Below are positions 14,129 through 55,620 of a DNA stretch of 64,000 bases, piece by piece (positions within the stretch are counted from its first letter, which is position 1; each line of letters begins with the position of its first letter). The notes under the pieces are model-generated. The model did not search any database. It saw only the letters and a list, made by a program, of their open reading frames with translations, and was not told where the DNA came from. The stretch is from contig NZ_CP066339.1 of the NCBI RefSeq assembly GCF_016406125.1, positions 1,612,001 through 1,676,000 on the forward strand. The letters are read 5' to 3'. The DNA comes from Alicyclobacillus sp. SO9. GTDB lineage: Bacteria > Bacillota > Bacilli > Alicyclobacillales > Alicyclobacillaceae. Both the position numbers and the translations under genes were made by a program.

Positions 14129-14653
14129 TCAGGAGTTATGCGGCTCACTGTGATTTTGGCGTTGGCTGCTTTGACTGGATTGGTTTAATTCCTGTGCGGG
14201 ACTCACCTGCTTTTGAAAGTTCGGTCGATTTGGTTGACCTGGAGTGGCCAGACCGTCCGCATCAGAGTGAGTCTCCAGTTTGTCAAACAGATTGACAAGC
14301 TTTTCGTCCAGGTTTTTCTGCATTTCCGTCAGTTGCGTATGGATGGATTCAAGGCGGTTTAGCTTTTTCCTTGTTTCGCGCAGTTCGTGGAGCACGGAAC
14401 GGTAGCTTTGTTGAGAATACTGACTTGACGGTCTGACCGGTTTGCTCCCGGAGCTGTGCCCCTGGGTTCCGTGCTTCTGATGTGCAGAACGTTTATGTCC
14501 TTTCGTCTTCACACTGCGCACTGCAGCTGACGGTCCTGTCAATCGTCCTCCTGTAGAATTTTGTTTTGCTGCACCTGCAGGACCCGACGCTGTCGCATTG
14601 TCTTCCTGACGAAGTCTGATCTCCTGTTGTAATCTGGCATCGCTGTATGCTTT
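14129..14653 (-). pseudogene. 3' part of a gene interrupted by the 14.35-kb element
   Basis: The frame runs from the recombination core at 14645-14653 to a stop at 14129 (174 codons). A weak internal TTG at 14542 with AGGAGG four bases away might allow some translation. The sequence is hydrophilic: a charged helix (SDARLQQEIRLRQEDN), a Gly/Ala/Ser linker, a basic His/Lys/Ser stretch, a coiled coil (about RSVLHELRETRKKLNRLESI onward) and a Gln/Ser/Asn-rich tail. Its missing first 14 residues are found at 28995-29048 on the same strand, beyond the element. Joining at the shared core restores one frame of about 188 aa. I do not recognise the protein; a spore-coat-like or regulatory role would be a guess. 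Confidence 0.8.
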
Positions 14654-14660
14654 AGCTTAC
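14645..14660. other. Left attachment site of the 14.35-kb element
   Basis: GTATGCTTT at 14645-14653 is repeated exactly at 28998-29006 in the same orientation. On the element side the core is continued by AGCTTAC. The circle joint would read GTAAGCTAAAGCATAC (minus strand), an imperfect dyad GTAaGCT-aa-AGCaTAC with outer TTTG/CAAA, as expected for a serine recombinase attP. Confidence 0.75.
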
Positions 14661-14680
14661 ATATGCAAATGGCCACAGAC

Positions 14681-16078
14681 TCATGCAAAAGCAATGGATA
14701 CCTGTGTGACAGAGTAAACGGTAATGGACCGCACCAATAGGTTCACAACTTGCTTTTTTTCGTGCATATTTGCTTCTTGCCAAATTCGAGAGAAGCTCTT
14801 CAATAACTTCAGTTCCACTTCGCTATAGTCGATTTCCTTGGCTACTGGTTCACGCTGAGCACGGAGTTCCAATTCTTGTTCCTGAAGAGCATCCAGGCGT
14901 TCTCTCATTTCTACGGCCTCAATGAGTCCTTCTTCAAAGGCGTCTTTCCACCGACTTCGCCTACGTTCGATTTCTTCTAGCTTTGAATCCATGGATTGTT
15001 TGAGGTTTTTCAATTCCATCCTTTTTGGTTTATCTATATTATCTTGTTCTTCGTAAATATTTTGAATTTCTTTACGTATCATGGCATTGAGTATGAATTC
15101 TCGTATATATGGGAGATCACAGGTTCTCGATGAGTTTCGTTCTGAGCACATATAGTAACGTCTTCCTGTTTTATGGCCCTTGGCCTTCCCGATCATCGGT
15201 GCGCCACACCGACCACATCTAAGGACACCAGTCAGCGGATAACTTCCTGTGCCAGATCTCGACGGGCTCGACTTTTTCTTCTGTCGCAGCTTTTGAATAT
15301 GCTTCCACGTGGCCTTATCGATGAGTGGTTGATGGTCTCCAGGCTCAATAATTGTTTCTCCTTTACTGCGACTCCCGAACCCATATCTTACATAACCAGC
15401 GTACACATCATTATCTAGTAAATATCTCAATGTATTTTGTGACCATCGACCACTTATGGGGGTCAATTTCGGATCGGTTGTATCATTCAACCACCTCAAG
15501 AGACGCATTGTTCCCCATCCCTGAAGATACTTTGCAAAAATATCCTGTACCAATTGAGCTGCCGGTCCGTCTGGCACCAATTCCCCCCCCTCATATCTAT
15601 AGCCAAAAGGAGCGTGTGCGCCCGTACGCTTCCCTTGTTGAATTTTCTCTACTTGTCCCATTCGCACACGTTCCCCAAGGTTTTCACGCTCCCACTGAGC
15701 CAATGCGGCAACAATAGTGATGAATAAACGTCCCATTGCCGATGTGGTATCAAATACCTCTGTCGCACTTTTGAAAGAGACATTGTGCTTCTCAAGCTCC
15801 TGAATGAAATTGTGAAGGTCTACGACGTTTCTTGTAAGCCTGTCTAGTCTGTAGACCAATACAATGTCTAAATGATGCTCCTGTATGTGCGCCATCATTC
15901 GTTGTAGTCCAGGTCGCTGAAGATTTTTAGCGCTTTCCCCTTCGTCAGTGTAGATGTCGTATATCTCCCAAGCCTGTGATTCACAATAGGCACGTAGACG
16001 ACTTAACTGAGCATCAAGTGAAAATCCTTCTTCAGCCTGTATGTCTGTTGATACACGCGTATAGAGTGCGGCTTTCAT
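14681..16078 (-). CDS. Large serine recombinase (site-specific integrase)
   Basis: A 465-aa recombinase. N-terminal resolvase domain with YTRVST and catalytic Ser10, GESAKNLQRPGLQRM and LVYRLDRLTRNVVDL; recombinase domain from about 150 (PFGYRYEGGELV); zinc beta-ribbon with CGRCGAPM and MCSERN..RTC; then a coiled coil (about 335-420). The ATG at 16078 lies eight bases after AGGAGG; an in-frame TTG two codons earlier is too close to that site. The 3' end is 28 bp from the left att core, the usual position for an integrase. It should catalyse integration and, with a directionality factor, excision of this element. Confidence 0.93.
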   Translation of the reverse strand: MKAALYTRVSTDIQAEEGFSLDAQLSRLRAYCESQAWEIYDIYTDEGESAKNLQRPGLQRMMAHIQEHHLDIVLVYRLDRLTRNVVDLHNFIQELEKHNVSFKSATEVFDTTSAMGRLFITIVAALAQWERENLGERVRMGQVEKIQQGKRTGAHAPFGYRYEGGELVPDGPAAQLVQDIFAKYLQGWGTMRLLRWLNDTTDPKLTPISGRWSQNTLRYLLDNDVYAGYVRYGFGSRSKGETIIEPGDHQPLIDKATWKHIQKLRQKKKSSPSRSGTGSYPLTGVLRCGRCGAPMIGKAKGHKTGRRYYMCSERNSSRTCDLPYIREFILNAMIRKEIQNIYEEQDNIDKPKRMELKNLKQSMDSKLEEIERRRSRWKDAFEEGLIEAVEMRERLDALQEQELELRAQREPVAKEIDYSEVELKLLKSFSRIWQEANMHEKKQVVNLLVRSITVYSVTQVSIAFA

Positions 16079-16375
16079 CTTCAATGCCTCCTATACCGCC
16101 AAAGTGTTCCTGATAGTCTTAAAGGGAAGCCAGATTGATGCTGTACATGATTTTGTGTTATGACACTAAAAAAGGGTATGAGATAGAGCTGGTATAAGCA
16201 ATCTTTGCCGAAGAATGCATTCTTCAGAGATAGATACTTGAACTCGAGAACCCCTGCTGATAAATGCGTTGGACGAAAATTCTGCGTGTTGGGCAAGGTT
16301 CGTGCATACGGTTCATGCACCAGCGCATGAATAAAGTCGGCGGATTCGTCCACGGGAAGCGCTTATGGGCCAGTC
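16079..16375. other. Leader region between small ORF and recombinase
   Basis: 297 bp without a convincing gene. A 90-codon frame overlaps the recombinase start by a few bases but lacks protein-like composition. The recombinase promoter presumably lies here; I see no clear consensus. Confidence 0.3.
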
Positions 16376-16585
16376 TCAGACTGTCTCATCAGGCTGATTG
16401 CATGGCCTAATTCTTCTTAAGTGTTGCTCCGCCTCCTGCTCGTTTTTGAGCAGGGCGCGCGCGGCTTCTACGCTCCCCATTGTTTTAACCAATTCGATTG
16501 CTTGCCGGCGCGCTATGCTCTGGACCACATTCATGAATGCACTTCGCGCTTCCTCGCTCGGTTTATTAAGTACTTTGACCTCCAA
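16376..16585 (-). CDS. Small protein upstream of the recombinase (candidate directionality factor)
   Basis: A 69-aa hydrophilic, helix-rich protein beginning MEVKVLNKPSEEAR. A TTG start at 16585 is set by AGGGGGTGA five bases upstream, better than the GTG at 16594 that overlaps the site. It lies upstream of the recombinase on the same strand. The skin element at 50.6 kb has a comparably placed small ORF that also opens with a Val/Met-Lys beta strand and then a helix containing R..F. I do not recognise a family; a recombination directionality factor role is inference. Confidence 0.6.
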   Translation of the reverse strand: MEVKVLNKPSEEARSAFMNVVQSIARRQAIELVKTMGSVEAARALLKNEQEAEQHLRRIRPCNQPDETV

Positions 16586-16841
16586 TTCCGTCACCCCCTG
16601 TGTATTCTATGAACTCATGGCTTGGTCAGTTGTCATTGCCACAGGATTTCTTGTTTTATTAGGAAATCTCTGCTTGCGTAGATTTTGTCTCTGTAATGGA
16701 TGACATCATTCATGGGCTCTATTAAATAAAGTGTCGCTATCGGTCGATATGAGAAATATTGTCTTGACCTATTCAAAATAATATGTTAATTTCACATTAG
16801 TTAGTTATGAGACCAAACCAACATGTTTGAGGGGATATTTA

Positions 16842-18032
16842 TTGGAACTCATTAAAGAGACGTTATCCGATTTGAGACATAAGAACAGACTGCGAATCCT
16901 TGAAATTATTAAACGATCTGAGCCAACATCTAGAGCTTACATAGCAAAATTACTTAATATGAGTCGTTCTAATGTTTCTGAAATCGTGCAGATACTTATC
17001 GAAGAGGGACTAATTACTGAAGAAGGCGTCGGTGATTCGACTTCTCAAGGGGGACGCAGACCTACCCAACTAAAGTTTGCTCCGAATTCCAAATATGCCC
17101 TGGGCATCGACATTGGAGGGAGCAAAACCATTGCAGTTGTCACCAATTTAAGAGGAGAGTGCATAGCGAGAACGAAATTCGCCTCACACCCGGCCGGAGA
17201 CGGGTCAGCACTTCAACATATTCGGGAAACCGTTGCAAAGTTTCTCGATGAATCCGAGATTTCTGTCGACAAAATCGTTGCTACGGGCGTTGGTATCCCT
17301 ACAATTGCCAACTATGAGACTGGAGACGTGAAATTTGCCCCAGGGCTTTCCGAGGGCGATGTCAACATTCGAAATCTATTTTTAACTGAGTTGCCTGAGC
17401 CAGTTTACGTTGACAATGATGTCAATATGGCTGTGATTGGAGAAAGATGGATTGGTAACGCGACGGGCTGCAAGGATGTAGCGTTTGTGGCAGTTGGTAC
17501 AGGCGTTGGAGCTGGACTGATTGTTAACGGTAAAGTACTTCGAGGAATGTCTGGGATGGCTGGCGAGATTGGCTACTTCCACATGGACCCATTTGTTGAC
17601 AAGCCGGATACGCAGTTAGCTACATATGGAGTCTTGGAGTCGACGGCTTCTGGTCGGGCAATTGAGCAACAGATACAGTACTATAAGCCAAAATTTCCAG
17701 ATTCAAAATTGGAGGATGGAATGGGCATGGCGGAGATTTTCGAACAAGCTAGGGACAACGATCCCCTTTCATTGTATTTGATAGACAAAATGACGAAGTC
17801 TATTGCCTTCTCCATATCGCATTTAGTTTTGATTTTAAATCCCGAACGAGTGTTGTTGGGCGGAGGAGTTGCTCAGGTCGGCGAGAGTTTTGTTGGTCCC
17901 ATTCGTGACAGGGTTCAATCTCTCGTTCCAATGAAGATTGCAGTTGAAAGGGGCCAACTAGGAGAGGATGCCGCTGCGTACGGCGCCGCCGCTATGGCTT
18001 TACTGGAAACGGAAAATTTAGTCCTCGACTAA
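16842..18032 (+). CDS. ROK family transcriptional regulator
   Basis: A 396-aa NagC/XylR-type regulator. The N-terminal winged helix (about 12-65, RAYIAKLLNMSRSNVSEIVQ) is followed by a ROK sugar-kinase-like domain with the ATP loop GIDIGGSKT at 88-96, GVGIPTIANYETG, VYVDNDVNMAVIGE, and GTGVGAGLIVNGKVLRGMSG. The usual ROK cysteine cluster (CxCGxxGC) is absent. The start is the TTG at 16842 after GAGGGGATA. It heads the catabolic cluster in the same direction and most likely represses it until a sugar inducer binds (inference from family). Confidence 0.9.
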   Translation: MELIKETLSDLRHKNRLRILEIIKRSEPTSRAYIAKLLNMSRSNVSEIVQILIEEGLITEEGVGDSTSQGGRRPTQLKFAPNSKYALGIDIGGSKTIAVVTNLRGECIARTKFASHPAGDGSALQHIRETVAKFLDESEISVDKIVATGVGIPTIANYETGDVKFAPGLSEGDVNIRNLFLTELPEPVYVDNDVNMAVIGERWIGNATGCKDVAFVAVGTGVGAGLIVNGKVLRGMSGMAGEIGYFHMDPFVDKPDTQLATYGVLESTASGRAIEQQIQYYKPKFPDSKLEDGMGMAEIFEQARDNDPLSLYLIDKMTKSIAFSISHLVLILNPERVLLGGGVAQVGESFVGPIRDRVQSLVPMKIAVERGQLGEDAAAYGAAAMALLETENLVLD

Positions 18033-18163
18033 CTCGACATTGGCCATTTCATGTTACTGAGCTTGAGTGAGTCTTAAGGAGGTGGTTGGAAAACGTGTCT
18101 ATTGTGTTAGTTCGCAACTGCAACCTAGAACGAGCTAAAAAATATCAAACAGGGGGCATTCTA

Positions 18164-19477
18164 ATGAAAATCAAAGCTGGAAAGAAAGCGTTTGCGTTTG
18201 TCGCAATAGCATCCGTAGCAACCACCATTGTGGCTGGGTGTGGGAGTCCTAGTGCCAACAGTGCCAATGGCTCTGCCAGTACGAACAAGACCTCATCACA
18301 GAAGGCCGTGACTCTTAGTATTCTCTGGTTTAACAATGGAAATGAAGGTAAGGTTCTAAAGAAGATAACCAAGCAGTACCAGCAACTTCACCCAAATATA
18401 CATTTCAATATTATTACTGTTCCATACAGTAATGAAAACACCAAATTGAAAACGATGATTGCTGGTGGGCAGCCTCCAGCGCTGGCTCGCATAACAGACC
18501 CAGGCGAGTTTGGAAGTTCTCTGCTTAATTTATCTAAATATTTGAACGGAACTGCTTTTTACAATAGTTTTTTAGATGCAGCGAAACCAGACACAACTGT
18601 CAGCGGTAGGCTCGTAGCAGCACCAATCGATGTAACCGCAAACGGTTTGTTTTATAACAAGACGTTATTTGCTAAAGCTGGCGTCAAAGTTCCAACATCA
18701 CCCAACAACGTCTGGACATGGACACAGTGGGAAAATGCTATTAAAACCGTCATGAAAAAGAGTGGAGCCCGTGTAGGATTAGCTTACGACAAGAGTCCAT
18801 TTCGGTTCTCCACACTTATTTACGAAGCAGGCGGATCTATTTTCACAAAGAACGGAAAGCATATGGCGATTAATTCGACTAAAGCGACCCAAGCTTTTAC
18901 GTTTTTTAATCAACTGAATCAATCGGGTATTATTCCAAAATCTATTTGGTTAGGCAATGAGAACCCGAATGCGCTGTTCCGAACCGGCACGACCGCTATG
19001 GATTTTTCGGGAAACTGGATGATTCAAAATTATAAGAGCCTCCCGTTTAAGTGGGGGGCAACCTACTTGCCGAAGAAAGCGATACGTTCTACTGTGCCCG
19101 GAACGGACCAAATAGCAGCTTTCAAGGGAAGTGGTGTAGAAAAGCAGGCAGTGGCTTTCCTAAAGTATTTCATGTCTCCAAAGATTAACGCAGAATTCTG
19201 CGAACAAGCGTTTCTTCTCAGTTCTCTGAAAGCTAATGGGGATCTCAAATATCCCGGAGCGACACCGACTGTGACAGATGCAATGAAAGTCTTTGAAAAT
19301 GAGTTGGCCGCTACTCCGCCCACTCCAGGAAGAGATTGGGCTAATCCAGCCATGCAACAGTTTCAGACACCATTGAAGCAATACGTGATTAAAATGCTTC
19401 AGAAGAAATTAACGCCACAACAGACTACTAATGCGTTGCAGAAAATTGGGACAAAAATTCTATCTCAAACTAAATAA
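18164..19477 (+). CDS. ABC transporter sugar-binding lipoprotein
   Basis: A 437-aa extracellular solute-binding protein (family 1, UgpB/MalE type). The signal peptide ends in lipobox IVAGC with Cys26 as the lipidated residue, followed by a Ser/Asn linker. ITDPGEF, APIDVTANGLFYNKTLF and the PGTDQIAAFKGSGVEKQAVAFLKYF region are typical of this family. ATG with AGGGGG upstream; an in-frame extension to TTG 18086 exists behind another good site, but would bury the signal peptide. It presumably delivers oligosaccharides containing unsaturated uronate to the two permeases downstream. Confidence 0.92.
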   Translation: MKIKAGKKAFAFVAIASVATTIVAGCGSPSANSANGSASTNKTSSQKAVTLSILWFNNGNEGKVLKKITKQYQQLHPNIHFNIITVPYSNENTKLKTMIAGGQPPALARITDPGEFGSSLLNLSKYLNGTAFYNSFLDAAKPDTTVSGRLVAAPIDVTANGLFYNKTLFAKAGVKVPTSPNNVWTWTQWENAIKTVMKKSGARVGLAYDKSPFRFSTLIYEAGGSIFTKNGKHMAINSTKATQAFTFFNQLNQSGIIPKSIWLGNENPNALFRTGTTAMDFSGNWMIQNYKSLPFKWGATYLPKKAIRSTVPGTDQIAAFKGSGVEKQAVAFLKYFMSPKINAEFCEQAFLLSSLKANGDLKYPGATPTVTDAMKVFENELAATPPTPGRDWANPAMQQFQTPLKQYVIKMLQKKLTPQQTTNALQKIGTKILSQTK

Positions 19478-19499
19478 TGTCCCTCAGTGAAAAATGCAT

Positions 19500-19525
19500 C
19501 GGGTGCCCCCTGAACAGGGCACCCG
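19500..19525 (+). terminator. Hairpin between binding protein and permeases
   Basis: CGGGTGCCC and GGGCACCCG form a perfect 9-bp stem. Such stem-loops after binding-protein genes commonly give partial termination or protect the 3' end, so the binding protein is made in excess. Confidence 0.65.
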
Positions 19526-19588
19526 AAAGGAACCCTTTTTGTTAACAGTTATGGCATTCCAACATGGGAAATGAGGGGGTCTAACATC

Positions 19589-20491
19589 ATGCAACAAATG
19601 ACTGGAAATACACGGTTAAGGTACAAAATTATGAAGGGCAGCACTCCTTACGTCCTCATATTCCCAAATTTACTTTTGTTTTTTGTCTTTATCATTCTTC
19701 CTGCGATTTTTGGACTAATTGATTCTTTTGCAAGGTGGAACGGAATTGAACCACTACACTTTATCGGGCTAGGTAACTATGTTGCTCTATTAACTTCGCA
19801 TTCCTTTTGGACCATGTTGTGGAGAACATTTAGATTCATTCTTATAGCTGTCCCTCTAACATTTTTTGTATCGTTGTGGCTGGCTTACTTACTGAGCAAA
19901 GATATACGGGGCCGTTCATTCTTCCGAATGGTATTCTACGCACCAGCAGTTATTTCCGCGATTGTTACCGGGGTAGCGTGGAAATGGATCTTGAGCAGTC
20001 AGTTTGGTGTTCTGAATTACGCACTTCATACGGTAGGAATCAGGCCCGTTGATTGGCTTGTCAGCGGCTTTTTTGCAAGTTTGTCTGTGGTAGTCGTGAG
20101 TGTATGGAGTTGGGCCGGTTTCTATATGCTGATTTTCATTGCAGGTTTGCAAAGCATACCGATTCAATATTACGAGGCAGCCGCGTTGGATGGAGCGTCC
20201 CCATTTAGGAGGTTCTGGAGTGTTACATTCCCTTTATTGCGTCCAACTAGCTTACTTGTGGTTATTTTGAATACGATACAGGCGTTCCAAACATTTGCAT
20301 TAGTATATGTCTTGACTGACGGGGGTCCGGGGAATACTACCCGGTTCTTCGTTCAAGATATCTATGAAACTGGCTTCAATACGGGGCGTTTCGGGTATGC
20401 CAGTGCTCTATCGGTCATGCTCTTCGTGATTTTGGCAGTATTGACAGTAATTCAATTACGTCTTGGTCGGCAGGGAGAGAATGATTTATGA
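19589..20491 (+). CDS. ABC sugar transporter permease (UgpA/MalF type)
   Basis: A 300-aa membrane protein with about six helices and the EAA loop YEAAALDGASPFRRFWSVTFPLLRPT that contacts the ATPase. GAGGGGG precedes the ATG at 19589; an earlier in-frame ATG at 19571 overlaps this site. Overlaps the next permease by 4 nt. No ATPase gene is in the element, so a shared MsmX-type ATPase elsewhere is probably used (inference). Confidence 0.92.
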   Translation: MQQMTGNTRLRYKIMKGSTPYVLIFPNLLLFFVFIILPAIFGLIDSFARWNGIEPLHFIGLGNYVALLTSHSFWTMLWRTFRFILIAVPLTFFVSLWLAYLLSKDIRGRSFFRMVFYAPAVISAIVTGVAWKWILSSQFGVLNYALHTVGIRPVDWLVSGFFASLSVVVVSVWSWAGFYMLIFIAGLQSIPIQYYEAAALDGASPFRRFWSVTFPLLRPTSLLVVILNTIQAFQTFALVYVLTDGGPGNTTRFFVQDIYETGFNTGRFGYASALSVMLFVILAVLTVIQLRLGRQGENDL

Positions 20492-21309
20492 GGGAACACA
20501 GACTTAATCACGTCGGATCGTACGCTGTATTGACTGTTTTTACGTTGTTCTTTGCTCTCCCCATATATTGGACTGTCATTTCGGCCTTCAAGCCACTGCA
20601 AGAGTTGTTCACATGGCCGCCACTTTTATGGCCAAACCATTTCACAATCAAGAATTTCATTGTTGTACTACGCTCGACAGATTTTGTTCGATATTTTTTA
20701 AACAGTACCTTTGTAACTATAACTTCAACAATTATTACCTTGTTTCTAAGCCTAACCTCAGGTTACGCACTAGCAAAATTCAAATTTCGAGGCAGTACGT
20801 TCATTCTGATTTTGATACTTGGAACTATCATGTTCCCGCTAGAAGTCATTATGATACCTATGTTTCAAGTTCTCAAGGACCTCCATCTCTACAATTCTCT
20901 ATGGGGAATTATCATTCCGCCAGCTGCCACACCAACGGGAGTATTTTTAATGAGACAATATCTACTCTCCATTCCCAATGATTTGTTAGAGGCAGCTAGA
21001 ATCGACGGGGCTAGCGAATGGTGGATCTTTCTACGGATCATTACGCCATTGGCAAAACCAGCTATCGCTGTCTTGGCCATTTTTTCGTTTATGTGGCGAT
21101 GGAATGATTATCTGTGGCCATTACTCGTGATAAGCAATCCACATAAATATACGTTGGGATTGGCTATTGCAAATTATGCTGGCGAATTCAGCGTTAATTG
21201 GACAAGTCTGTTAGCGATGACCGTAATCACCATGATACCAGTGATAGTGGTATTTCTAAGTTTGCAACGATTCATTGTCAAGGGCTTGTTTCTCTCTGGT
21301 ATGAAATAG
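20488..21309 (+). CDS. ABC sugar transporter permease (UgpE/MalG type)
   Basis: A 273-aa membrane protein with the EAA loop LLEAARIDGASEWWIFLRIITPLAKPAI and C-terminal QRFIVKGLFLSGMK typical of the second permease of CUT1 importers. ATGA overlap with the preceding gene indicates translational coupling. Confidence 0.92.
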   Translation: MREHRLNHVGSYAVLTVFTLFFALPIYWTVISAFKPLQELFTWPPLLWPNHFTIKNFIVVLRSTDFVRYFLNSTFVTITSTIITLFLSLTSGYALAKFKFRGSTFILILILGTIMFPLEVIMIPMFQVLKDLHLYNSLWGIIIPPAATPTGVFLMRQYLLSIPNDLLEAARIDGASEWWIFLRIITPLAKPAIAVLAIFSFMWRWNDYLWPLLVISNPHKYTLGLAIANYAGEFSVNWTSLLAMTVITMIPVIVVFLSLQRFIVKGLFLSGMK

Positions 21310-21335
21310 AAAAGTACTGAAGGAGTTCGGTATTC

Positions 21336-23837
21336 ATGAAACACCAGACATACTCTCTTTATTACAATACGATGAATCGTTGGTTAGTCACTAATGTGGA
21401 TACCACGGAAGTGAAACTTCCGATGAGCACCCATACCTATGACGGGAACCTAAACGATTGGCTTGTAAAGGGGTTTGCCCTGTTTGAAAATCCTGAGCGA
21501 GAAGCCTTTATAAACCGCAGGCGCCGACGTCGAATATCTTATCCGAATTTGCTGTCGGTACCTCAACCTGGACAGGTGTTTAGTGACATGAATGTTGAAA
21601 GAACTTGGGAAATTTACATTCCTTGGAATAATCGAAATGTAGAGTCTTCAGGATTTTGGCGCAACCCGACTCTACTAAGTCAGTGGGCGTACACACGGGT
21701 ATATAGCGACGATCCACAATTGATACGACTTAGAATAAGAACGTGCGGAGGGGTGTGTCTGTGGTTGAACGGAGCGGAAATACTGAGGTTTGAGCCTTAC
21801 ACTCGCAACGAAGATAGCGAGATAGAGGTTAACGTGACCCTCGACGGGGGACTAAATGATTTTATAGTCTACCACGAGGACCTAGCTGAAAGAGATACTT
21901 TATTCAAATTCCGAATTGATGCATACGCTACATGTCCACTCTCAATTCATTTGCCCATCGGAGATGTGAATGGTGACAATTTGAGCCAACTAGAGTTAGC
22001 GGTCAACAATGCATATTTCAGAAGAGATACTTTGCGGTCCGGTGACGTTGAATTGAGGATGAGCAATCCTCTGAAGGAAGACTTGACAGTTCATGTAGAC
22101 AACCAGATTGAATGGGGCAAGAGACGGTCTCAAGAGCTTTTATGGCGCAAGCAATCGAGTTCATTGGTGCTTGGGACGGTAGACGATTTTGATGTTGGTG
22201 TTAACTTTTTTGGCCTAGAATTCTCCAATGGTTCAGTTCGGCTAAAGCGTCAGTGGATGATTCAAATCTATCCATCTTGGTGGAGTACGCTTGAAGCTCC
22301 AAGTGTTTCTCAGCGTAAGTCAATCTTGCTCAAAGAAATTTCTCGGCATGGGCGTCGGGATGCACATCATGCTTATGCGATGCTGGTAAGCCACGGTTCT
22401 AGGGAAGAGATTGAGGATATCATGGGAAACGAGCTGAGTCTGATTGACCAACGGTCCGACTGCAGTGATTTCTCACTTATAGTAATGTTTCGATTTTATC
22501 TATTTTCCCTTGATAACCCGGATTGGAACAATTTAAGGCATCGGATAAAGCAAAGTATCTTGGGGTTCAGATATTGGTTTGATGAGCCTGGAAATGATGT
22601 AATGTGGTTCTTCAGCGAAAATCACGCATTGTTGTTTCATACGTGTGAGCTGCTAGCAGGACAATTGTTTCCAGATGAGACGTTTTCCAACTCAGGTCTC
22701 TTGGGTCGGGAACATGTTGAACTCGCCAAGGAACGACTTTTCAATTGGTTCTCACGGTTCCGTACAGAGGGTCTAGCTGAATGGAATTCAGCTCCCTACA
22801 TACCAATAGACGTTATGGGGCTGCTTGAACTAAGAGACTTAACCCAGGACCCCGCTCTCAAACAACAGGCGAGTCAAGCTCTAGACAATATTTTTGAACA
22901 TATTTGCGCTAACAGTCTGGATGGGATTCTATCATGCTCTCAGGGGCGTACTTACGAAAAGGATCTAAAGGCTACAACCACTGGTGCCATTGCTGCTTTA
23001 TTATGGCTGTCCTACGGAATAGGAGCACCAAATCCGTCGTCGTTTGGCGTGGTTTCTCTATGTGTTTCAGATTACAAACCGCCACACGAACTACAGAAAC
23101 TAATTGTCACTGATAAACAAAGTATCGTTTACCAATGTCACCAAGGCCCTGATAAACACGCAGACTTGTATACTTTCAAAATCTTCGGTGCCATTTTGTC
23201 AACCGCACCATCCTTCCGAAGAGGAAAGAATGGTTACTCGGAACATGTATTACATGCGGCACTTTCCTCGGAAGCAATGGTTTGGGTCAATCATCCAGGG
23301 GAGTCAGATCCAAATGGCACAGGACGACCTGGGTATTGGGCTGGTAATGGAACTCTACCTCATGTAGGACAATACCGAGGTGTCGCTGTAGCCTTGTATC
23401 AAATTGGGGAATGTCAGGATATTAGCTATACACATGCTTATTTCCCCAAATTCGCTTTCGATAGTGTGGTAGCACGAGGTCAATGGGTATTCGGTCAAGT
23501 AGGGCACCGTTACATTGCCTTATGGGTTGCTAATGGGTTCGAGTGGATACGAACTGGGGCCGGAACAGAAAGAGAATTGGTTTCCAGTGGACGAAAAAAC
23601 ACATGGGTTTTGGCAGTAGGAAGCGACTCTGATTTTACTAACTATAATGATTTTATGGATAAGTACAGTTCAATCGCCTTTACTGATACCCCTGGGGAGC
23701 AAATTTCCTTTCGTGATCCCCGTTATGGATTTGTCAATTTTGGATGGAAATCCAATTTCGAAATAAATAATCAGAGGGTACGGTATAGTGGCTTCGGCCC
23801 TCATCCGCGAATTGAACACTACATAAAGGAGGGCTAA
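21336..23837 (+). CDS. Large cytosolic protein of unknown function in a uronate locus
   Basis: An 833-aa protein without signal peptide or membrane helices. The N-terminal part (about 1-300) looks beta-rich, with a carbohydrate-domain-like stretch (LRIRTCGGVCLWLNGAEI). The middle part (about 330-560) is helical with conserved-looking W, H and E residues: WFDEPGNDVMWFFSENHALLFHT, WFSRFRTEGLAEWNSAPYIP, and GRTYEKDLKA. This resembles an (alpha/alpha) toroid as in polysaccharide lyases and GH105/GH88-like enzymes. The C-terminal third is beta-rich again. It sits 26 bp after the permease and is nearly fused (2-bp gap) to the GH105 gene. I recognise no named family. A lyase or hydrolase acting on imported uronate oligosaccharides is the best inference. 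Confidence 0.8.
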   Translation: MKHQTYSLYYNTMNRWLVTNVDTTEVKLPMSTHTYDGNLNDWLVKGFALFENPEREAFINRRRRRRISYPNLLSVPQPGQVFSDMNVERTWEIYIPWNNRNVESSGFWRNPTLLSQWAYTRVYSDDPQLIRLRIRTCGGVCLWLNGAEILRFEPYTRNEDSEIEVNVTLDGGLNDFIVYHEDLAERDTLFKFRIDAYATCPLSIHLPIGDVNGDNLSQLELAVNNAYFRRDTLRSGDVELRMSNPLKEDLTVHVDNQIEWGKRRSQELLWRKQSSSLVLGTVDDFDVGVNFFGLEFSNGSVRLKRQWMIQIYPSWWSTLEAPSVSQRKSILLKEISRHGRRDAHHAYAMLVSHGSREEIEDIMGNELSLIDQRSDCSDFSLIVMFRFYLFSLDNPDWNNLRHRIKQSILGFRYWFDEPGNDVMWFFSENHALLFHTCELLAGQLFPDETFSNSGLLGREHVELAKERLFNWFSRFRTEGLAEWNSAPYIPIDVMGLLELRDLTQDPALKQQASQALDNIFEHICANSLDGILSCSQGRTYEKDLKATTTGAIAALLWLSYGIGAPNPSSFGVVSLCVSDYKPPHELQKLIVTDKQSIVYQCHQGPDKHADLYTFKIFGAILSTAPSFRRGKNGYSEHVLHAALSSEAMVWVNHPGESDPNGTGRPGYWAGNGTLPHVGQYRGVAVALYQIGECQDISYTHAYFPKFAFDSVVARGQWVFGQVGHRYIALWVANGFEWIRTGAGTERELVSSGRKNTWVLAVGSDSDFTNYNDFMDKYSSIAFTDTPGEQISFRDPRYGFVNFGWKSNFEINNQRVRYSGFGPHPRIEHYIKEG

Positions 23838-23839
23838 GA

Positions 23840-24928
23840 ATGACTGCACAAGGCTCTGGACTGGATTCTGTGTTAAGAAAAATCGTAGAAGCGACCATCG
23901 CTCTGCATGGTAACGCTGAAGAGGAACCATTTCCAATTGGATTGGTCGATATAAACAACTGGGAGTGGCCTCAAGGAATTGGCCTATATGGACTCTTTCA
24001 ATATGCTAAAGCCACAGAAGACACTCGCATTATGGCCTTTCTCGAGGGATGGTTTGAACGGCACTTTCATAATGGTCTGCCAGCTAGAAACATTAACACC
24101 ACGGCTCCACTTCTAGCTCTGATATCGTGGTATGAGTTCACGCAATCGGCCGAGCAAAATTTTGGCGAAAAATACCTGTCATTATGCCATGATTGGGCCA
24201 ATTGGTTAGTAACTACTTTGCCAAGAGCCGGTGAAGGAGCTTTCCAACATACTATAACCGGTGACTCTAATGACGGACAAATTCTTATCGATACCCTCGT
24301 CATGGCGACACTATTCCTTGCAAAGTTAGGTAAGATATCGAATCGTAGCGATTTAGTGGATGAGGCTCTGTATCAGTGGTTGGTACATATCAAGTACTTA
24401 ATTGATCCAAAAACAGGACTATTCTTTCACGGTTGGACATTTCGAGAGCGTCATCACTATGGTGCCGTTCGCTGGGGAAGAGGTAACAGTTGGTTTACCA
24501 TCGGTGCTGTTGAGCTATTTGAACTATTAGATTCCACCAGTGGTTCAACTCTCCGGCTGATCCAAGAGACATGGAAACGTCACATAGCAGCCCTATCAGC
24601 ATTGCAAGAGAGAGATGGCATGTGGCATACCGTGTTGGATGATCGATCGTCCTACCTTGAGAGCTCATCGACAGCCGGATTCGCTTACGGAATTTTGAAA
24701 GGCGTTCGACTGGGGTATCTAAGTGAAGAATGGAAACCTCTAGGCGAACGAGCTATTTCAGGCCTTGTCAATAGGGTACAGAGTGATGGAGTACTCAGAG
24801 ATGTCTCCTACGGAACTCCCGTTGGTGAAACAGTGGAATTCTATAAAGCGATCTCTGTCAAACCCATGACATATGGCCAAGCATTAGCAACTCTGGCGCT
24901 GTCTGAGGGATTGTACCTCGAGCTTTAG
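23840..24928 (+). CDS. Unsaturated uronyl hydrolase (GH105/GH88 type)
   Basis: A 362-aa (alpha/alpha)6-barrel glycoside hydrolase. The NINTTAPLLALISWYEF, GQILIDTLVMATLFLAKLG (candidate catalytic Asp151) and VRWGRGNSWFTIGAVELF segments match YteR/YesR-type unsaturated rhamnogalacturonyl hydrolases. These hydrate the 4,5 double bond of the terminal uronate made by lyases and release 5-keto-4-deoxyuronate. No signal peptide, so it acts on imported oligomers. Its product feeds KduI. Substrate (rhamnogalacturonan versus glycosaminoglycan) is not settled by sequence. Confidence 0.88.
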   Translation: MTAQGSGLDSVLRKIVEATIALHGNAEEEPFPIGLVDINNWEWPQGIGLYGLFQYAKATEDTRIMAFLEGWFERHFHNGLPARNINTTAPLLALISWYEFTQSAEQNFGEKYLSLCHDWANWLVTTLPRAGEGAFQHTITGDSNDGQILIDTLVMATLFLAKLGKISNRSDLVDEALYQWLVHIKYLIDPKTGLFFHGWTFRERHHYGAVRWGRGNSWFTIGAVELFELLDSTSGSTLRLIQETWKRHIAALSALQERDGMWHTVLDDRSSYLESSSTAGFAYGILKGVRLGYLSEEWKPLGERAISGLVNRVQSDGVLRDVSYGTPVGETVEFYKAISVKPMTYGQALATLALSEGLYLEL

Positions 24929-24971
24929 GAAGAACAGCGATTTTGCTAAAAAATACTGAAAGGTGATGGAA

Positions 24972-25799
24972 ATGAAAATACGCTATGCATCCCACCCGGA
25001 AGACGTAAAACATCTCTCTAGTCGCGACATATACGACAGATTTACCATCCGTAACTTGTTTGTTGAACACCAGATTAATACCGTTTTTTCGCATCATGAT
25101 CGTGGAGTTGTATTGGGAATTGTACCGATTTCACCGCTAACACTCGAAGAAGAGCCAGCACTGCGAGCAAGTTATTTTTTAGAACGGCGGGAGATGGGAT
25201 TGATCAATATTGGAGGGGACGGGACTGTCCAAGTCGATGGTGAGACATACACCTTACACTCTAAGGATGGAATGTATATTGGTAGAGGCGCAAAGCAGGT
25301 GACTTTCAGCAGTTTAGACAGTACCAATGCGGCTAAATTTTACGGGCTGTCTGGTCCTGCACATAAGTCACTTCCTACCACTCTCATACGCTTTCATGAC
25401 ACGATGTCCTTTGATCTAGGATCGGAGGAACATTCTAACAAACGAGTTTTGCGCCGATACATACATGAAGACGGAGTTCAGGGCTGCTCGCTAGCGATGG
25501 GAATGACAGTCCTAAGTGAGGGTAGTGTATGGAATACAATGCCACCCCATGTTCATGATCGACGCTCGGAAGTCTATATGTATTTTAATGTAGCAGATGG
25601 TCAGAGAGTATTTCATTTCATGGGGGAGCCAAACGAAACTCGGCACGTCATCATTGGAAATGAAGACGTTGTGATTTCGCCGAGTTGGTCAATACACAGT
25701 GGGGCGGGAACATCGAATTATAGCTTTATCTGGGGCACCATAGGAGAGAATGTCACGTTTAGTGACATGGACAATTTAAACCTTGCGGATCTTAGATAG
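24972..25799 (+). CDS. kduI: 5-dehydro-4-deoxy-D-glucuronate isomerase
   Basis: A 275-aa cupin that isomerises 5-keto-4-deoxyuronate to 2,5-diketo-3-deoxygluconate. It opens with the family sequence MKIRYASHPEDVKHL; metal ligands are seen in PPHVHDRRSEVYMYF (two His and Glu) and in SWSIHSGAGTSNYSFIWG. Length equals E. coli KduI (278). The ATG at 24972 lies eight bases after AAGG; GTG 24963 and ATG 24966 are in frame just upstream. Confidence 0.95.
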   Translation: MKIRYASHPEDVKHLSSRDIYDRFTIRNLFVEHQINTVFSHHDRGVVLGIVPISPLTLEEEPALRASYFLERREMGLINIGGDGTVQVDGETYTLHSKDGMYIGRGAKQVTFSSLDSTNAAKFYGLSGPAHKSLPTTLIRFHDTMSFDLGSEEHSNKRVLRRYIHEDGVQGCSLAMGMTVLSEGSVWNTMPPHVHDRRSEVYMYFNVADGQRVFHFMGEPNETRHVIIGNEDVVISPSWSIHSGAGTSNYSFIWGTIGENVTFSDMDNLNLADLR

Positions 25800-25843
25800 T
25801 CCCTTTTAGGGTATTTCCAGATGGCGATTGGGAGGAGTTACGC

Positions 25844-26602
25844 ATGTTAACGGATCTGTTTTCTCTAAAGGGAAAGACTGCTCTAGTAACTGGAGTTAGT
25901 CGAGGATTAGGTAAGGGTATTGCCTGCGCGTTGGCGGAATATGGAGCAGACATTGTGGGAGTCGGGATTAGTAATATGAACGAAACTTCAAAATGTGTAG
26001 AGGAGTTAGGCGGTCAATTTACTTCGGTACATGCAAATCTCATGGACCCAACGAGTGTGAGACAGTTGCCAGCTAAGGTTTACCAAGTTGCTGAGAGAAT
26101 TGACATATTGGTAAATAATGCAGGGATTATTCGGCGTTCACCTGTAGAGGATTACAGTAATGAGGACTGGCAGGATGTGCTAGACGTAAATCTCAACGCT
26201 GTATTTTATCTGTGCCGCGAATTTGGCACAAAGATGGCTCTTCGTGGTTTTGGAAAAATAATTAACGTTGCTTCAATGCTTTCCTTTCAGGGTGGACTGC
26301 GTGTCCCGGCATACGCAGCTAGTAAGCACGGTGTAGTTGGGTTGACACGTTCACTATCCAATGAGTGGGCTGGCCGTGGGGTTAACGTAAACGCCATCGC
26401 TCCGGGATACATGGTGACGGATAACACTGATGAATTGCGGGCAAATACCGAAAGATCCAAAGCGATTTCAGCCCGGATTCCGTCGGGTCGCTGGGGTACT
26501 CCAGATGATTTAAAAGGGGCAGCAATTTTCCTGGCCTCAAAGGCCTCCGATTATGTCCATGGACATACAGTATGTGTTGATGGTGGTTGGATGTCGTCGT
26601 AA
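25844..26602 (+). CDS. kduD: 2-dehydro-3-deoxy-D-gluconate 5-dehydrogenase
   Basis: A 252-aa short-chain dehydrogenase. TGVSRGLGKG (about 16-25) binds NAD(H), NNAG at 91-94, and Ser144-Tyr157-Lys161 form the catalytic set (NVASML, YAASK). It reduces 2,5-diketo-3-deoxygluconate to 2-keto-3-deoxygluconate. Placement right after kduI makes the KduD assignment firm. GGGAGGAG precedes the ATG. Confidence 0.93.
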   Translation: MLTDLFSLKGKTALVTGVSRGLGKGIACALAEYGADIVGVGISNMNETSKCVEELGGQFTSVHANLMDPTSVRQLPAKVYQVAERIDILVNNAGIIRRSPVEDYSNEDWQDVLDVNLNAVFYLCREFGTKMALRGFGKIINVASMLSFQGGLRVPAYAASKHGVVGLTRSLSNEWAGRGVNVNAIAPGYMVTDNTDELRANTERSKAISARIPSGRWGTPDDLKGAAIFLASKASDYVHGHTVCVDGGWMSS

Positions 26603-27104
26603 CTTAGGCATCGGCGCTCGAGTTAGTGAACTACGTGCGACATACCTTGGTAAGACGCGTAAACCATATTGTTACAATACTGAACATAGTCTATATCTCG
26701 CTATCCTTATTAAACGAACTAGTTGTCATGCGGGGCTGCTGCTGAAGCCGGTCATGTCTCGATTTGCTGAACACGAGATTGCAGAAAGTGAAGAGTGCAA
26801 TTCTGTTGAAAACTCGGGTAGAGAATAGGGGTGTAGTGCTTCATGGTGCTTTTGAGGTCGACACATGTAGCAGAAACGCGGGTAGTCCGCATGCCCCTCA
26901 TGGCCGGTACTAAGTCTAGCTGATGTGATGACTTACGCAGGAGACTCGATGGGTTAACGGTATGTTACTGGGAGGGCCAATGGGAGATTGTTTACGTGTC
27001 GAGACAGTAGTTGGATCGCGCTTTGATAGTCATTGGGATTTTTGAAGCGTATCCAACTTGAAAGAGGTCCAGCGGGTACTTGACGAGACAAGTGAGGTTT
27101 TTTA
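26603..27104. other. 502-bp gap where a KDG kinase gene would be expected
   Basis: I find no convincing coding frame. A 63-codon minus-strand frame (26954-27145) and an extension past kduD look non-coding. Pathways of this type normally include a 2-keto-3-deoxygluconate kinase (kdgK) near kduID and the aldolase; none is in the element. The gap may be a deletion scar, but I cannot identify any kinase motif in it. Confidence 0.4.
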
Positions 27105-27734
27105 ATGAGGGGAGAAGAAATCAGTTTCATGCGTCGTTCGCGCATTATAGCGATTTTACGGAGAATCCCTTTGGAGTCGGCTGTTCAGATTACTGATGCT
27201 GCCATAGAGGGGGGTATCAGGGTGGTCGAGGTTACACTCGAAGGTAAGGATGGCCTTAAGGTACTTTATACTCTTCGGGACAAGTACGAAGACCAACTCT
27301 TACTTGGCGCGGGAACCGTAATGAGTTGTGAACAGATTAAGGAGGCTAGTAAAGCGGGAGCACAGGTTTTATTTAGTCCTTATCTAGATGTAAAACTGTT
27401 AGACTGCGCACAAGAGAATGACATTTTATTAGTACCAGGTGTTACCACACCAACAGAGATTGTGAGGGCTAACCAAGCTGGTGCAAAAGTACTTAAACTG
27501 TTTCCGGCAAACTCGCTGGGAGTGGAGTACTTGAAGAGCCTTTTAGGACCATTTCCCGAAATTTCAGTGATACCAACTGGAGGTATTACGCGAGCCAATG
27601 CGAGGTCATATCTTGAAACTGGTGCGCTTGCCGTTGGTATGGGAAGTGAATTGTTTCCAAGAACCGACGTGGAACAGGGGAATTGGTCTGAGATCATAAG
27701 ATTAATCAGCAATACGTTGGAGTCGTTGTCGTAG
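27105..27734 (+). CDS. eda: KDPG/KHG aldolase
   Basis: A 209-aa class I aldolase that cleaves 2-keto-3-deoxy-6-phosphogluconate to pyruvate and glyceraldehyde-3-phosphate. IIAILR, VVEVTLEG (catalytic Glu42), LLGAGTVMSCEQIKEA, LVPGVTTPTEI and KLFPAN with the Schiff-base Lys131 match the family. It completes the route from unsaturated uronate to central metabolism. An alternative ATG is at 27129. Confidence 0.93.
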   Translation: MRGEEISFMRRSRIIAILRRIPLESAVQITDAAIEGGIRVVEVTLEGKDGLKVLYTLRDKYEDQLLLGAGTVMSCEQIKEASKAGAQVLFSPYLDVKLLDCAQENDILLVPGVTTPTEIVRANQAGAKVLKLFPANSLGVEYLKSLLGPFPEISVIPTGGITRANARSYLETGALAVGMGSELFPRTDVEQGNWSEIIRLISNTLESLS

Positions 27735-27868
27735 CATCTTTGGTGGACTCAAAGTGGTGGGGGCGAGCGTATCGGTACTGATTTTGATTTTGCACATGAA
27801 AGGAGGCTCCGTATCGAATGTGATGTTGAGAGGAAAAGAATTTGTTGAAGTGAGGGGGATAGGGAAAT

Positions 27869-28600
27869 TTGCAGATTCGTAGATTTGACACTGCCACTGA
27901 AGCAGGTTTATATGCCGCCACAATAGTCGAACAGGTCATGCTGAATCGGCGTCGCCCTGTTCTTGGGCTCGCAACAGGAGCAAGTATGTTACCTGTCTAC
28001 GACTCGTTGATAGGATTCCATAGAGAAGGTCTGGATTTTGCCAGTGCGGTATCTATAAATCTGGATGAATACGTTGGACTACCGCGTGAGTGCGAGCAAA
28101 GTCTGCATGCCTATATGGACAGACATCTAATGAGATACGTTAACGTCTCAAAAAACAATATGTATATTCCAAATGGAGATGCGAAAGATCTCGATTCGGA
28201 ATGCGCCCGATACGATGAGGTGCTCAGAGCTAATCCAAGAGACGTTCAACTTCTAGGAATTGGGGTCAACGGTCACATTGCGTTTAATGAACCGGATGAT
28301 TCTCTTTCCACACGTACACACGTAGTTAGTCTAGCGAATGAGACCATAACGAGCAACTCGAGGTTTTTTGATGATGCTTCACGTGTTCCGAGGCGTGGCA
28401 TAACAATGGGACTACAATCTATTATGCAGTCAAAAAAGATAGTACTATTGGCCTTCGGGCAAGAAAAATCCCATGCGGTGAGATTGGCCCTCTCCGGTAA
28501 AGTAACTACAGATATTCCGGCAAGTATGTTACAGCTACATCCAGACGCCACTGTCGTGTTAGATGCTAACAGTGCCGAATTGTTATCTTCCAGACAGTAG
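27869..28600 (+). CDS. nagB: Glucosamine-6-phosphate deaminase
   Basis: A 243-aa enzyme converting glucosamine-6-phosphate to fructose-6-phosphate and ammonia. LATGASMLPVYDSL, INLDEYVGL (Asp66-Glu67), and LGIGVNGHIAFNEP with the catalytic His follow the family. TTG start after AGGG. Its presence with uronate genes suggests a substrate that contains both uronic acid and hexosamine, such as a glycosaminoglycan-like polymer (inference). No nagA is in the element. Confidence 0.92.
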   Translation: MQIRRFDTATEAGLYAATIVEQVMLNRRRPVLGLATGASMLPVYDSLIGFHREGLDFASAVSINLDEYVGLPRECEQSLHAYMDRHLMRYVNVSKNNMYIPNGDAKDLDSECARYDEVLRANPRDVQLLGIGVNGHIAFNEPDDSLSTRTHVVSLANETITSNSRFFDDASRVPRRGITMGLQSIMQSKKIVLLAFGQEKSHAVRLALSGKVTTDIPASMLQLHPDATVVLDANSAELLSSRQ

Positions 28601-28628
28601 CACAACCTTGTTGGTCAAAGGAGGCGAC

Positions 28629-28712
28629 ATGTCTGTTCGGTCAATACAAATAATTGACCCTGTGGAGGTCCCTCTTAAGCCCATTAACCCACGAACACCG
28701 TATTCTTTTTAA
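28629..28712 (+). CDS. 27-codon ORF, possible gene remnant
   Basis: A short frame beginning MSVRSIQIIDPVEVPLKP and ending PYSF is preceded by a strong AAGGAGG. The good ribosome site and gene-like opening suggest the 5' remnant of a larger cargo gene, cut off before the right end of the element; a true small peptide is possible. No family recognised. The 280 bp to the att site hold nothing else that I can support. Confidence 0.3.
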   Translation: MSVRSIQIIDPVEVPLKPINPRTPYSF

Positions 28713-28994
28713 ACATTCATAGTTAAAATAAGAATTTTGGGTGAAGGTAGCTCCGTGCGTGTGTCTCCACCCTTTGTCAGATCGACTTAGGTAAGATTCG
28801 AGTGTCATGAAGAACTATCTCCCGTGCATTTGGTAGGGGTATGGCCCAGGTGGTTGATATGAGGGTTGGTGTCCTCTTTCTGACCATGGGCTTAAAGACC
28901 CCATGAATGAGAGGAAGGTGCATCGGCGTGCACGCACTCATAGAATGCCTTACGGTAGAGGTCAAGATTCTTAGGTTTAGGGAGGGTCTTTGAT

Positions 28995-29048
28995 CTAGTA
29001 TGCTTTTACGATCATCGGGATCCATCTAAACCTTTGTAATTTTTTCAC
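28995..29048 (-). pseudogene. 5' part of the interrupted gene
   Basis: GTG at 29048 starts a 17-codon frame, MKKLQRFRWIPMIVKAY (GTG read as Met), then TAG from element DNA. GAGGGG upstream is a plausible ribosome site. The last three codons (AAA GCA TAC) are the shared core; in the left fragment the same codons continue in frame with SDARLQQ. The rejoined product is about 188 aa. Confidence 0.75.
28998..29006. other. Right attachment site of the 14.35-kb element
   Basis: GTATGCTTT, identical to 14645-14653. To the right lies the 5' end of the interrupted gene; to the left, element DNA puts a TAG immediately after the core, ending the fragment. Confidence 0.75.
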
Positions 29049-29173
29049 ACGAATCCCGCCCCTCTGTACGTTCGCCAAATGATTTAGTACAGTGTATTAT
29101 GAGTAATTAGCGCTTGAGCAGGATAGCCACCTAGTATGAAGGGGTAATTCCCACCCCATCTCTTCGTTGTATC

Positions 29174-50147: not shown

Positions 50148-50179
50148 TGCTGTGGCTCGATTATGCTGTGGCTCGATTA
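50148..50179. repeat. 16-bp tandem duplication at the sigK stop codon
   Basis: TGCTGTGGCTCGATTA occurs twice in tandem; the second copy contains the sigK stop codon. Confidence 0.9.
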
Positions 50180-50593
50180 TGGTGTGTCTTGATTCTTCGG
50201 CCGGTACACAAACGGTTTTCGCTTGCGTTCACCTGCATAGGCTTGGTGGAACATCTTGAGCAGGGCCCGTTTTTCTAAGCGAGACACATAAGAACGGGAT
50301 ATCTTTAAATAATCGGCCACTTCATTCTGTGTCCAGTCCTTCCCGTCCTTTAAGCCAAAGCGAAGCTCAATGACGGTTCGTTCGCGGCCGTCAAGGACGT
50401 TCATCAATTTGTGCATATTGCCAATTTCAATTCTTTTATTGACTTCGTTCTCCGTCTGGTCTGCGTCGGACCCAAGAATATCAGATATGGTGATTTCGTT
50501 GCCTTCCTTATCGGTGCCAATTGGGCTGTAGAGAGAAATATCCTTTTTGGTTTTCTTTTGAGTACGTAGTTGCATTAGGATCTCATTCTGAAT
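50177..50593 (-). pseudogene. sigK: sigK 3' part (regions 2.4-4), separated by the skin element
   Basis: Codons from IQNEILMQLRTQKKTKKD to the stop encode sigma-K regions 2 (end), 3 and 4, including the helix-turn-helix WTQNEVADYLKISRSYVSRL. This corresponds to the classical spoIIIC fragment. The open frame continues 15 codons into element DNA, which is not sigK. Joined at the core to 55272-55616 it gives a 247-aa sigma factor (Bacillus subtilis SigK, 241). Sigma-K drives late mother-cell transcription in sporulation. Confidence 0.95.
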
Positions 50594-50603
50594 GTCAGAA
50601 GGC
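50581..50603. other. Left attachment site of the sigK element
   Basis: Core TCTCATTCTGAATG at 50581-50594 is repeated at 55277-55290. The arm TGAATGTCAGAAGGC (50589-50603) is the inverted partner of 55260-55274 (14 of 15 bases). Confidence 0.92.
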
Positions 50604-50679
50604 AGCGTAATAAATCTCCAATTGCATTGATAGGACAATCCCGTACTTGCGTAAAGTTTCTCTGAGGGGGAACTTCCGG

Positions 50680-50868
50680 GTGAAACTAACGATTCACGAA
50701 GGTGCAGGTGCGGACGAGTCGCGGCGAAACTTCTTTAAGCTGTTGCTTGACATGTACGAGAAGGGGATGCTGACTTCTCATGATAGCGATTTATGCGAGA
50801 GTATCCACGGAGGAACAGGCGAAACACGGATTCAGTCTGAACGACCAGATTCGGGAGGGGAGACGTAA
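50680..50868 (+). CDS. Small ORF overlapping the SpoIVCA-like recombinase (candidate directionality factor)
   Basis: A 62-aa frame with GTG at 50680, nine bases after GAGGGGG. The first 30 residues look protein-like (VKLTIHEGAGADESRRNF, then a Leu-rich helix); the last 30 overlap the recombinase frame. The layout, a good ribosome site just inside the left att site, supports expression. In C. difficile, skin excision needs a small factor encoded in the element; whether this ORF is its equivalent is inference. Confidence 0.5.
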   Translation: MKLTIHEGAGADESRRNFFKLLLDMYEKGMLTSHDSDLCESIHGGTGETRIQSERPDSGGET

Positions 50869-55259: not shown

Positions 55260-55290
55260 GCCTTATGACATTCAATTCTCATTCTGAATG
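55260..55290. other. Right attachment site of the sigK element
   Basis: Contains the 14-bp core at 55277-55290 and the inverted arm GCCTTATGACATTCA at 55260-55274. Confidence 0.92.
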
Positions 55291-55616
55291 CACCGTGCGG
55301 CATAAGTTGCAAATTTCGTTCCCTTTGTTGGCTGGTAGGTTTCTACCGCTTTGATGAGGCCAACGGTGCCGATGGAAATTAAATCATCGTGATCAATCCC
55401 GGACGTATCAAACTTCTTTGCGACGTGTGCTACGAGACGCAGATTATGCTCTATCAGTTCCTGATAGGCGTCACGGTCTCCATTCTGCCATCGTTCAAAG
55501 CATTCACGTTCTCGTTCCTTACTGAGGGGCTGAGGAAAAGACTGATGGACGTAACCGGTCACAAGGGTAATATCCTGAAACAACGCTGCAATGCCGAGAG
55601 CCATGGGTGATAGCAA
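55272..55616 (-). pseudogene. sigK: sigK 5' part (regions 1.2-2), separated by the skin element
   Basis: Encodes the pro-sequence-like start (MALGIAALFQDITLVTGYV), FPQPLS, then sigma region 2 with LIEHNLRLVAHVAKKF, DLISIGTVGLIKAVETY and KFATYAARCIQNE, where the element begins; one Asn and a stop from element DNA follow. Equivalent to spoIVCB of Bacillus subtilis. TTG at 55616 lies seven bases after GGAGGTGA and gives the right pro-sequence length; ATG at 55604 is the alternative. The ribosome site lies in the arm of a strong hairpin (55621-55677). Confidence 0.95.
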
Positions 55617-55620
55617 ATGC

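Follow-up and report, generated by a model that had tools for sequence, protein, structure and literature searches.

The interrupted gene and its intact relatives

In this work we have analysed a stretch of 64,000 nucleotides from Alicyclobacillus sp. SO9 (contig NZ_CP066339.1, positions 1,612,001 to 1,676,000; below, the window), in which an element with a large serine recombinase gene and a sugar-catabolic cargo splits a minus-strand gene, here called the host gene, into two parts. The features on which the argument turns are the following (the profile is that of the host-gene homologues described below; ORF, open reading frame; aa, amino acids).

28998..29048, minus strand: host gene, 5' part, 17 codons with a GTG start, ending in the core; profile positions 2-17
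14129..14653, minus strand: host gene, 3' part, 171 codons plus stop; profile positions 12-177
14645..14653, strand not applicable: left core, GTATGCTTT
28998..29006, strand not applicable: right core, GTATGCTTT; an imperfect palindrome, centred on the TT that closes the core, arises where the element ends are joined
14681..16078, minus strand: large serine recombinase (ORF from 16084, likely ATG at 16078) with Resolvase, Recombinase and zinc-ribbon domains
16376..16585, minus strand: small gene, 69 aa from TTG at 16585 (72 aa from GTG at 16594), candidate recombination directionality factor

The two 9-bp cores are identical and enclose an element of 14.35 kb. Joining the left flank, the core and the right flank gives one open minus-strand frame of 188 codons, starting with the GTG at 29048, which reads MKKLQRFRWIPMIVKAY and then SDARLQQ. 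A sequence-only reading of this DNA had pointed to the two cores and to the in-frame rejoining, and both were borne out exactly. In the integrated state the 5' part of the host gene runs into an element-borne TAG immediately past the core, and an in-frame TAA stands just ahead of the core in the 3' part.

Could such a join arise by chance? When the joined protein was used as query, 24 of 60 other genomes proved to have a homologue, and these 24 homologues together with the joined window frame were made into a profile of 25 sequences. With this profile the host gene was found in one piece in 32 of the 58 other genomes of the order, the best match in each beginning at profile position 1-5 and continuing past the junction at a single site; four of these matches (G039, G041, G051 and G061) were scored with internal stops, and for the first three of them the joined-protein search showed an open frame at that position. 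In the genome of the window the same profile matched in two pieces, positions 2-17 at 28998-29045 and positions 12-177 at 14177-14662. We therefore reject a chance in-frame join, because the profile of the relatives splits exactly at the cores. The relatives carry the unbroken gene on which the sequence-only reading had staked its interpretation. The insertion point falls in the best conserved stretch of the protein, around W-[ILV]-P-M...A-Y, and no NCBIfam family matches the protein. NifU-like and GNAT genes (both named by eye) flank the window copy, and within 1.5-kb flanks they are kept in 12 and 13, respectively, of the 24 homologue-bearing genomes. Judged from these comparisons, the element interrupts a real, conserved gene.

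Recombinase and sugar cargo of the element

The recombinase is full length and its Resolvase, Recombinase and zinc-ribbon domains all score above the Pfam cut-offs. Its ORF ends (14681) 27 bp from the left core, in agreement with the earlier claim that a serine recombinase adjoins this core. The nearest protein that we found has 61% identity and is encoded elsewhere in this genome; at E 1e-130, relatives occur in four of the 397 other genomes examined from the class, and these four belong to the same family. A search of genome contigs gave one distant match, no relative was found in viral contigs, and the best identity in a phage collection was 41%. Two other kinds of element were considered and rejected. 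A cassette of the staphylococcal cassette chromosome type is not supported, the scores for CcrB (210.7 of 900 bits), CcrC (163.4 of 900) and CcrA (142.7 of 700) all lying under the curated cut-offs, and neither is a prophage, as no structural, packaging or lysis genes were recognised among the element's ORFs (12 compared with Pfam and nine with NCBIfam; with PHROGs, the small ORF only). Related recombinases were seen some 10-12 kb away from spoIVA in five genomes (G031:C16, G035:C208, G063:C1, G064:C1 and G022:C7; loci L194-L197 and L201); the target genes of these elements were sought in those loci and none could be named.

The remaining genes of the element are all on the plus strand (ABC, ATP-binding cassette; KDPG, 2-keto-3-deoxy-6-phosphogluconate; KHG, 2-keto-4-hydroxyglutarate).

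16827..18032, plus strand: ROK-family regulator, NagC-like
18086..19477, plus strand: sugar-binding protein of an ABC importer
19571..20491, plus strand: ABC permease
20488..21309, plus strand: ABC permease
21336..23837, plus strand: 833-aa cargo protein of unknown family, no Pfam or NCBIfam match
23840..24928, plus strand: glycoside hydrolase family 88 (GH88) protein
24963..25799, plus strand: KduI, 5-dehydro-4-deoxy-D-glucuronate isomerase, over the NCBIfam cut-off
25844..26602, plus strand: KduD, 2-dehydro-3-deoxy-D-gluconate 5-dehydrogenase, over the NCBIfam cut-off
27105..27734, plus strand: Eda, KDPG/KHG aldolase, over the NCBIfam cut-off
27869..28600, plus strand: NagB, glucosamine-6-phosphate deaminase, over the NCBIfam cut-off

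By its predicted gene content, the cargo is a coherent locus for the uptake and degradation of uronates and amino sugars. The GH88 protein scored 408.1 against a cut-off of 420 for the BglB model. The 833-aa protein, which possibly represents an unrecognised carbohydrate-active family, has homologues of 38-41% identity in eight of 397 other genomes of the class, none of them in this family. One of these genomes (G307) has the order ROK regulator, binding protein, permeases, 833-aa protein and NagB, and two others (G153 and G203) have binding protein, permeases, 833-aa protein and GH88 protein, each without a recombinase match in the 20 kb read. The same gene order away from a recombinase match indicates that the cargo belongs together and was probably acquired. 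The sequence-only reading had called the locus complete. Its coherence holds and its completeness does not, since neither a 2-keto-3-deoxygluconate (KDG) kinase nor NagA was found among the scanned ORFs of the element, the rest of the genome not having been searched for them. We also rejected a KDG kinase hidden between KduD and Eda: the approximately 500 bp at 26603-27104 hold no convincing gene, with 16 stops in one frame, the other frames not having been searched with profiles.

Proposed regulated excision and its alternatives

The genome has matches to sigK, spoIVA and dpaA, so the source organism is very probably a spore former. Over transposase genes, a part of the genome's second contig shows 96.8% identity to an Alicyclobacillus plasmid, which hints at the genus or family. 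With somewhat more confidence than doubt, we read the locus as one of regulated excision in the mother cell, for which the recombinase would have the small protein as its directionality factor. According to this model, the element's own large serine recombinase would have inserted the 14.35-kb element into the conserved WIPMIVKAY stretch, and in growing cells the element would remain in place with its sugar-uptake and uronate/amino-sugar locus. In a sporulating cell the small gene upstream of the recombinase would be transcribed with one of the mother-cell sigma factors, K or E; its product would serve as recombination directionality factor, and the recombinase would join the attachment sites attL and attR inside the 9-bp core, with the AA/TT dinucleotide as the probable point of exchange. 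The 188-codon gene would be rebuilt in the mother cell and the spore would retain the element. As to the timing and the cell type of excision, this is what we infer. The insertion in a real, conserved gene, the serine recombinase and the likeness in arrangement to skin and SP-beta, all put forward in the sequence-only reading, are supported. The same reading had tied the loss of a carbon-source locus to the restoration of the protein, which was probably a misreading: excision confined to the mother cell, as described for skin (PMC6957869), would spare the spore, so that the element would be lost just from the dying cell and the loss of the catabolic locus would not be inherited.

As regards the exchange point, attP (the element ends when joined) is imperfectly palindromic about the TT with which the core ends, with 13 of 23 positions matching and a P of 0.013 which weighs less for being that of one among four tested sites; attB, attL and attR are not palindromic (P 0.78, 0.31 and 0.53).

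The candidate directionality factor is encoded upstream of the recombinase gene and in the same orientation, with about 300 bp between them. The best of its relatives in a set of 3021 small ORFs from recombinase loci had an E value of 5e-5, and six ORFs of the set could be aligned with it about an N-x-P-S motif. A profile of this family gave 11 strong matches (E below 1e-9) in 41 whole genomes. Nine of the ten outside the window sit 0.15-5 kb from a recombinase, a count whose support for our model is reduced by the fact that six of these nine were rows of the profile, chosen for that position; for the remaining match, on the second contig, no recombinase lies within the 13 kb examined. Four of the matches were new to the profile, and three of them (in G034, G062 and G035) adjoin a recombinase. 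Nothing convincing was found for the small gene in viral contigs, phages, plasmids, PHROGs or solved structures. We suggest that the small protein would act as a recombination directionality factor. The small gene and the recombinase gene point away from each other in all nine pairs, whereas the window copy stands upstream and co-oriented. Might the element then be stranded, once capable of excision and now fixed, its cargo retained for use and the host gene lost? This odd orientation and the gene-poor stretch of about 500 bp in the cargo are in keeping with such a fate, which we nevertheless consider improbable, given a recombinase of full length with all three domains, identical cores and a preserved frame.

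A relative of the small gene, carrying CATAGGCTA, is also present in a second element of the same genome, which has the 61% identical recombinase (L060, 14570-15967 and 19014; G000:C1:2432575 and 2437017) and a stretch resembling the upstream region in the window. This second element has repressor-like genes and sits beyond rny- and ymdB-like genes (names by eye).

If excision belongs to the mother cell, the genes concerned might carry mother-cell promoters. The -10 element of the sigma-K/E consensus has the form CATAnnnTR, and we used this as the mother-cell-type motif. In the window two sites are of interest.

29090..29098, minus strand: AATACACTG, one mismatch from CATAnnnTR, about 50 nt ahead of the host-gene GTG; weak alone
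16603..16611, minus strand: CATAGAATA, with AC at a sigma-K-like -35 spacing, upstream of the small gene

Among the homologues of the host gene, CATAnnnTR stands 37-49 nt ahead of the start in 16 of 26 regions (host-gene distances, like the matrix scan below, were reckoned from 29049 and not 29048, a shift of one base), and a second extraction found it in 18 of 28 genomes. In a shuffle test it was present in 13 of 20 regions against a shuffle mean of 0.55 and a maximum of 4 in 500. The motif was absent from 32 regions of neighbouring genes (NifU 0/13, glycosylase 0/8, DUF378 0/10, one other 0/1). As a yardstick we used dpaA, which we take to be a sigma-K gene in B. subtilis; it showed the motif in 24 of 29 regions, with CACC at the -35 spacing in 20 of the 27 dpaA sites listed. 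Similarly, members of the small-gene family have CATAnnnTR 25-32 nt before the start in eight of ten cases examined, and the shuffle test gave six of seven representatives against a mean of 0.066 and a maximum of 2 in 1000. On a matrix derived from dpaA, CATAGAATA before the small gene ranks 39, which is modest taken alone, and a site before the 5' part of a split sigK-like gene in the window ranks 3. For the combination AC-N17-CATAnnnTA the window has three occurrences where 0.94 are expected; there is no enrichment of CATAnnnTA by itself (21 against 18.4). The mother-cell-type motif at both the host-gene homologues and the small-gene family, as well as the pairing of the latter with recombinases, is thus supported statistically, and these patterns in DNA suggest that the host gene is probably transcribed in the mother cell during sporulation. 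We also counted in favour of developmental excision that the sigK-like gene, split and with its own recombinase, lies in the same window.

Several further results weigh against this model. The host-gene motif is missing from ten of the 28 genomes, and the largest genus has it in only two of eight. Several homologues score poorly on the dpaA matrix, and the window's own AATACACTG is not significant alone, because it has one mismatch and ranks only 192 of 127936 positions. No motif was recognised before the recombinase gene itself (best site, rank 1025). The small gene would have a very short leader, given how near to its start the motif lies, and its sequence, used singly as query, matched none of 58 other genomes. 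Another sporulation gene, spoIVA, shows the motif in one of 30 regions and is no useful yardstick. Finally, the host-gene profile found no match at threshold in 26 of the 58 other genomes of the order, so the host gene is not indispensable family-wide. Is the element perhaps an ordinary serine-recombinase genomic island whose attB happens to be a coding sequence, with a host gene that is inactivated and dispensable, and an excision that occurs only at a low, unregulated rate or with movement of the island? Many serine integrases target coding sequences, and both the genomes without a match to the gene and the weak motif in the window would suit such an island. We regard this as a serious possibility, if one that we would not expect to prove correct: conservation of the motif at the host-gene homologues and in the small-gene family speaks against it, as does the 3' part of the gene, which is still open over 171 codons.

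Comparison with known elements and the second split gene

Sporulation elements of this kind are reported in sigK, spoIVFB, spoVR, spsM, gerE and kamA (PMC6957869) and in yabG (PMC10747680). The nearest known system, as a non-phage element with a 9-bp core, is gin in gerE of Bacillus cereus ATCC10987 (PMC5595907). Like the element in the window, gin is described as having no phage genes, a serine recombinase and an intragenic 9-bp core with a predicted AA exchange point at one end, as we propose here, and its excision requires a small factor, the role for which our small gene is a candidate. It differs in its size of 28.6 kb, its 31 genes with three recombinases and its restriction-modification and recJ genes, as opposed to 14.35 kb, one recombinase and a catabolic cargo; its target is gerE and its excision was demonstrated in vivo and in vitro (PMC5595907), whereas the element studied here sits in another gene and its excision is a prediction. 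In skin of B. subtilis, skr (64 aa) lies directly upstream of the recombinase gene, co-oriented and with a mother-cell promoter (PMC6957869), a layout similar to ours, and non-phage cargo is present in skin too, as an ars operon (PMC12607644). However, skin is a prophage remnant in sigK, and its skr overlaps spoIVCA by 101 nt (PMC6957869), whereas here the interrupted gene is another one, no phage genes were recognised and the small gene stands apart from the recombinase gene. The likeness between Skr and the small protein meant here is one of gene layout. SP-beta likewise lies within a sporulation gene, spsM (PMC6957869, PMC4191935), while our host gene is only probably linked to sporulation. 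Its factor gene sprB has a sigma-E/K promoter and its recombinase gene a promoter of its own; it differs in being an active phage, with an additional stress-inducible promoter and with factor and recombinase at opposite prophage ends (PMC6957869). The Alicyclobacillus phage MMB025, possibly from the same bacterial family, also inserts in a sporulation gene, but it is a 105-kb infectious phage, its target is sigK, and its excision during sporulation is left open in the source (PMC13141910). In the literature searched we found no element with such a catabolic cargo in a sporulation gene, and within the limits of these searches three things are new: the gene interrupted, the catabolic nature of the cargo and the motif-bearing family of candidate factors.

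It may even be that this bacterial family has a whole clade of units of serine recombinase and small factor which are wired to a mother-cell sigma factor, with sporulation as a general signal for excision. In some of these elements metabolic operons would have taken the place of phage genes, and the one in the window would be a compact, domesticated case, with a catabolic locus carried inside a sporulation gene. The idea comes from the sigma-K/E-type motif, which stands at a near-fixed distance from the small gene in eight of the ten elements examined, at various places in various genomes; we put it forward tentatively, as one that may well fail. Should our main reading of the element in the window be correct, the few developmental DNA rearrangements known in bacteria would be joined by one whose target gene and kind of cargo are new and which has a candidate family of directionality factors, and an uncharacterised gene that is widely conserved in the family would probably have a part in sporulation. 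Serine recombinases with a member of the small-gene family nearby, preceded by the mother-cell motif, would then be the place to look for further elements.

The second split gene of the window, the sigK-like one mentioned above, has its 5' part at 55272-55640 and its 3' part at 50177-50638, both on the minus strand; the parts correspond to positions 7-116 and 109-225 of TIGR02846, with sigma regions 2 and 4. A 14-bp repeat, TCTCATTCTGAATG, is present at 50581-50594 and 55277-55290, about 4.7 kb apart, and we take the split site to resemble that of skin in B. subtilis. Between the two parts lie a serine recombinase (50780-52333, plus strand), a protein of rhodanese/metallo-beta-lactamase fold and a 4Fe-4S protein. 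A 62-aa ORF without a Pfam match (50680-50868, plus strand) overlaps the start of this second recombinase in another frame, and the overlap resembles the arrangement reported for skr and spoIVCA of skin. An intact sigK-like gene, over the TIGR02846 cut-off, is found elsewhere in the genome (G000:C1:3274366-3275034; L145), so the genome has a sigK-like gene besides the split copy.

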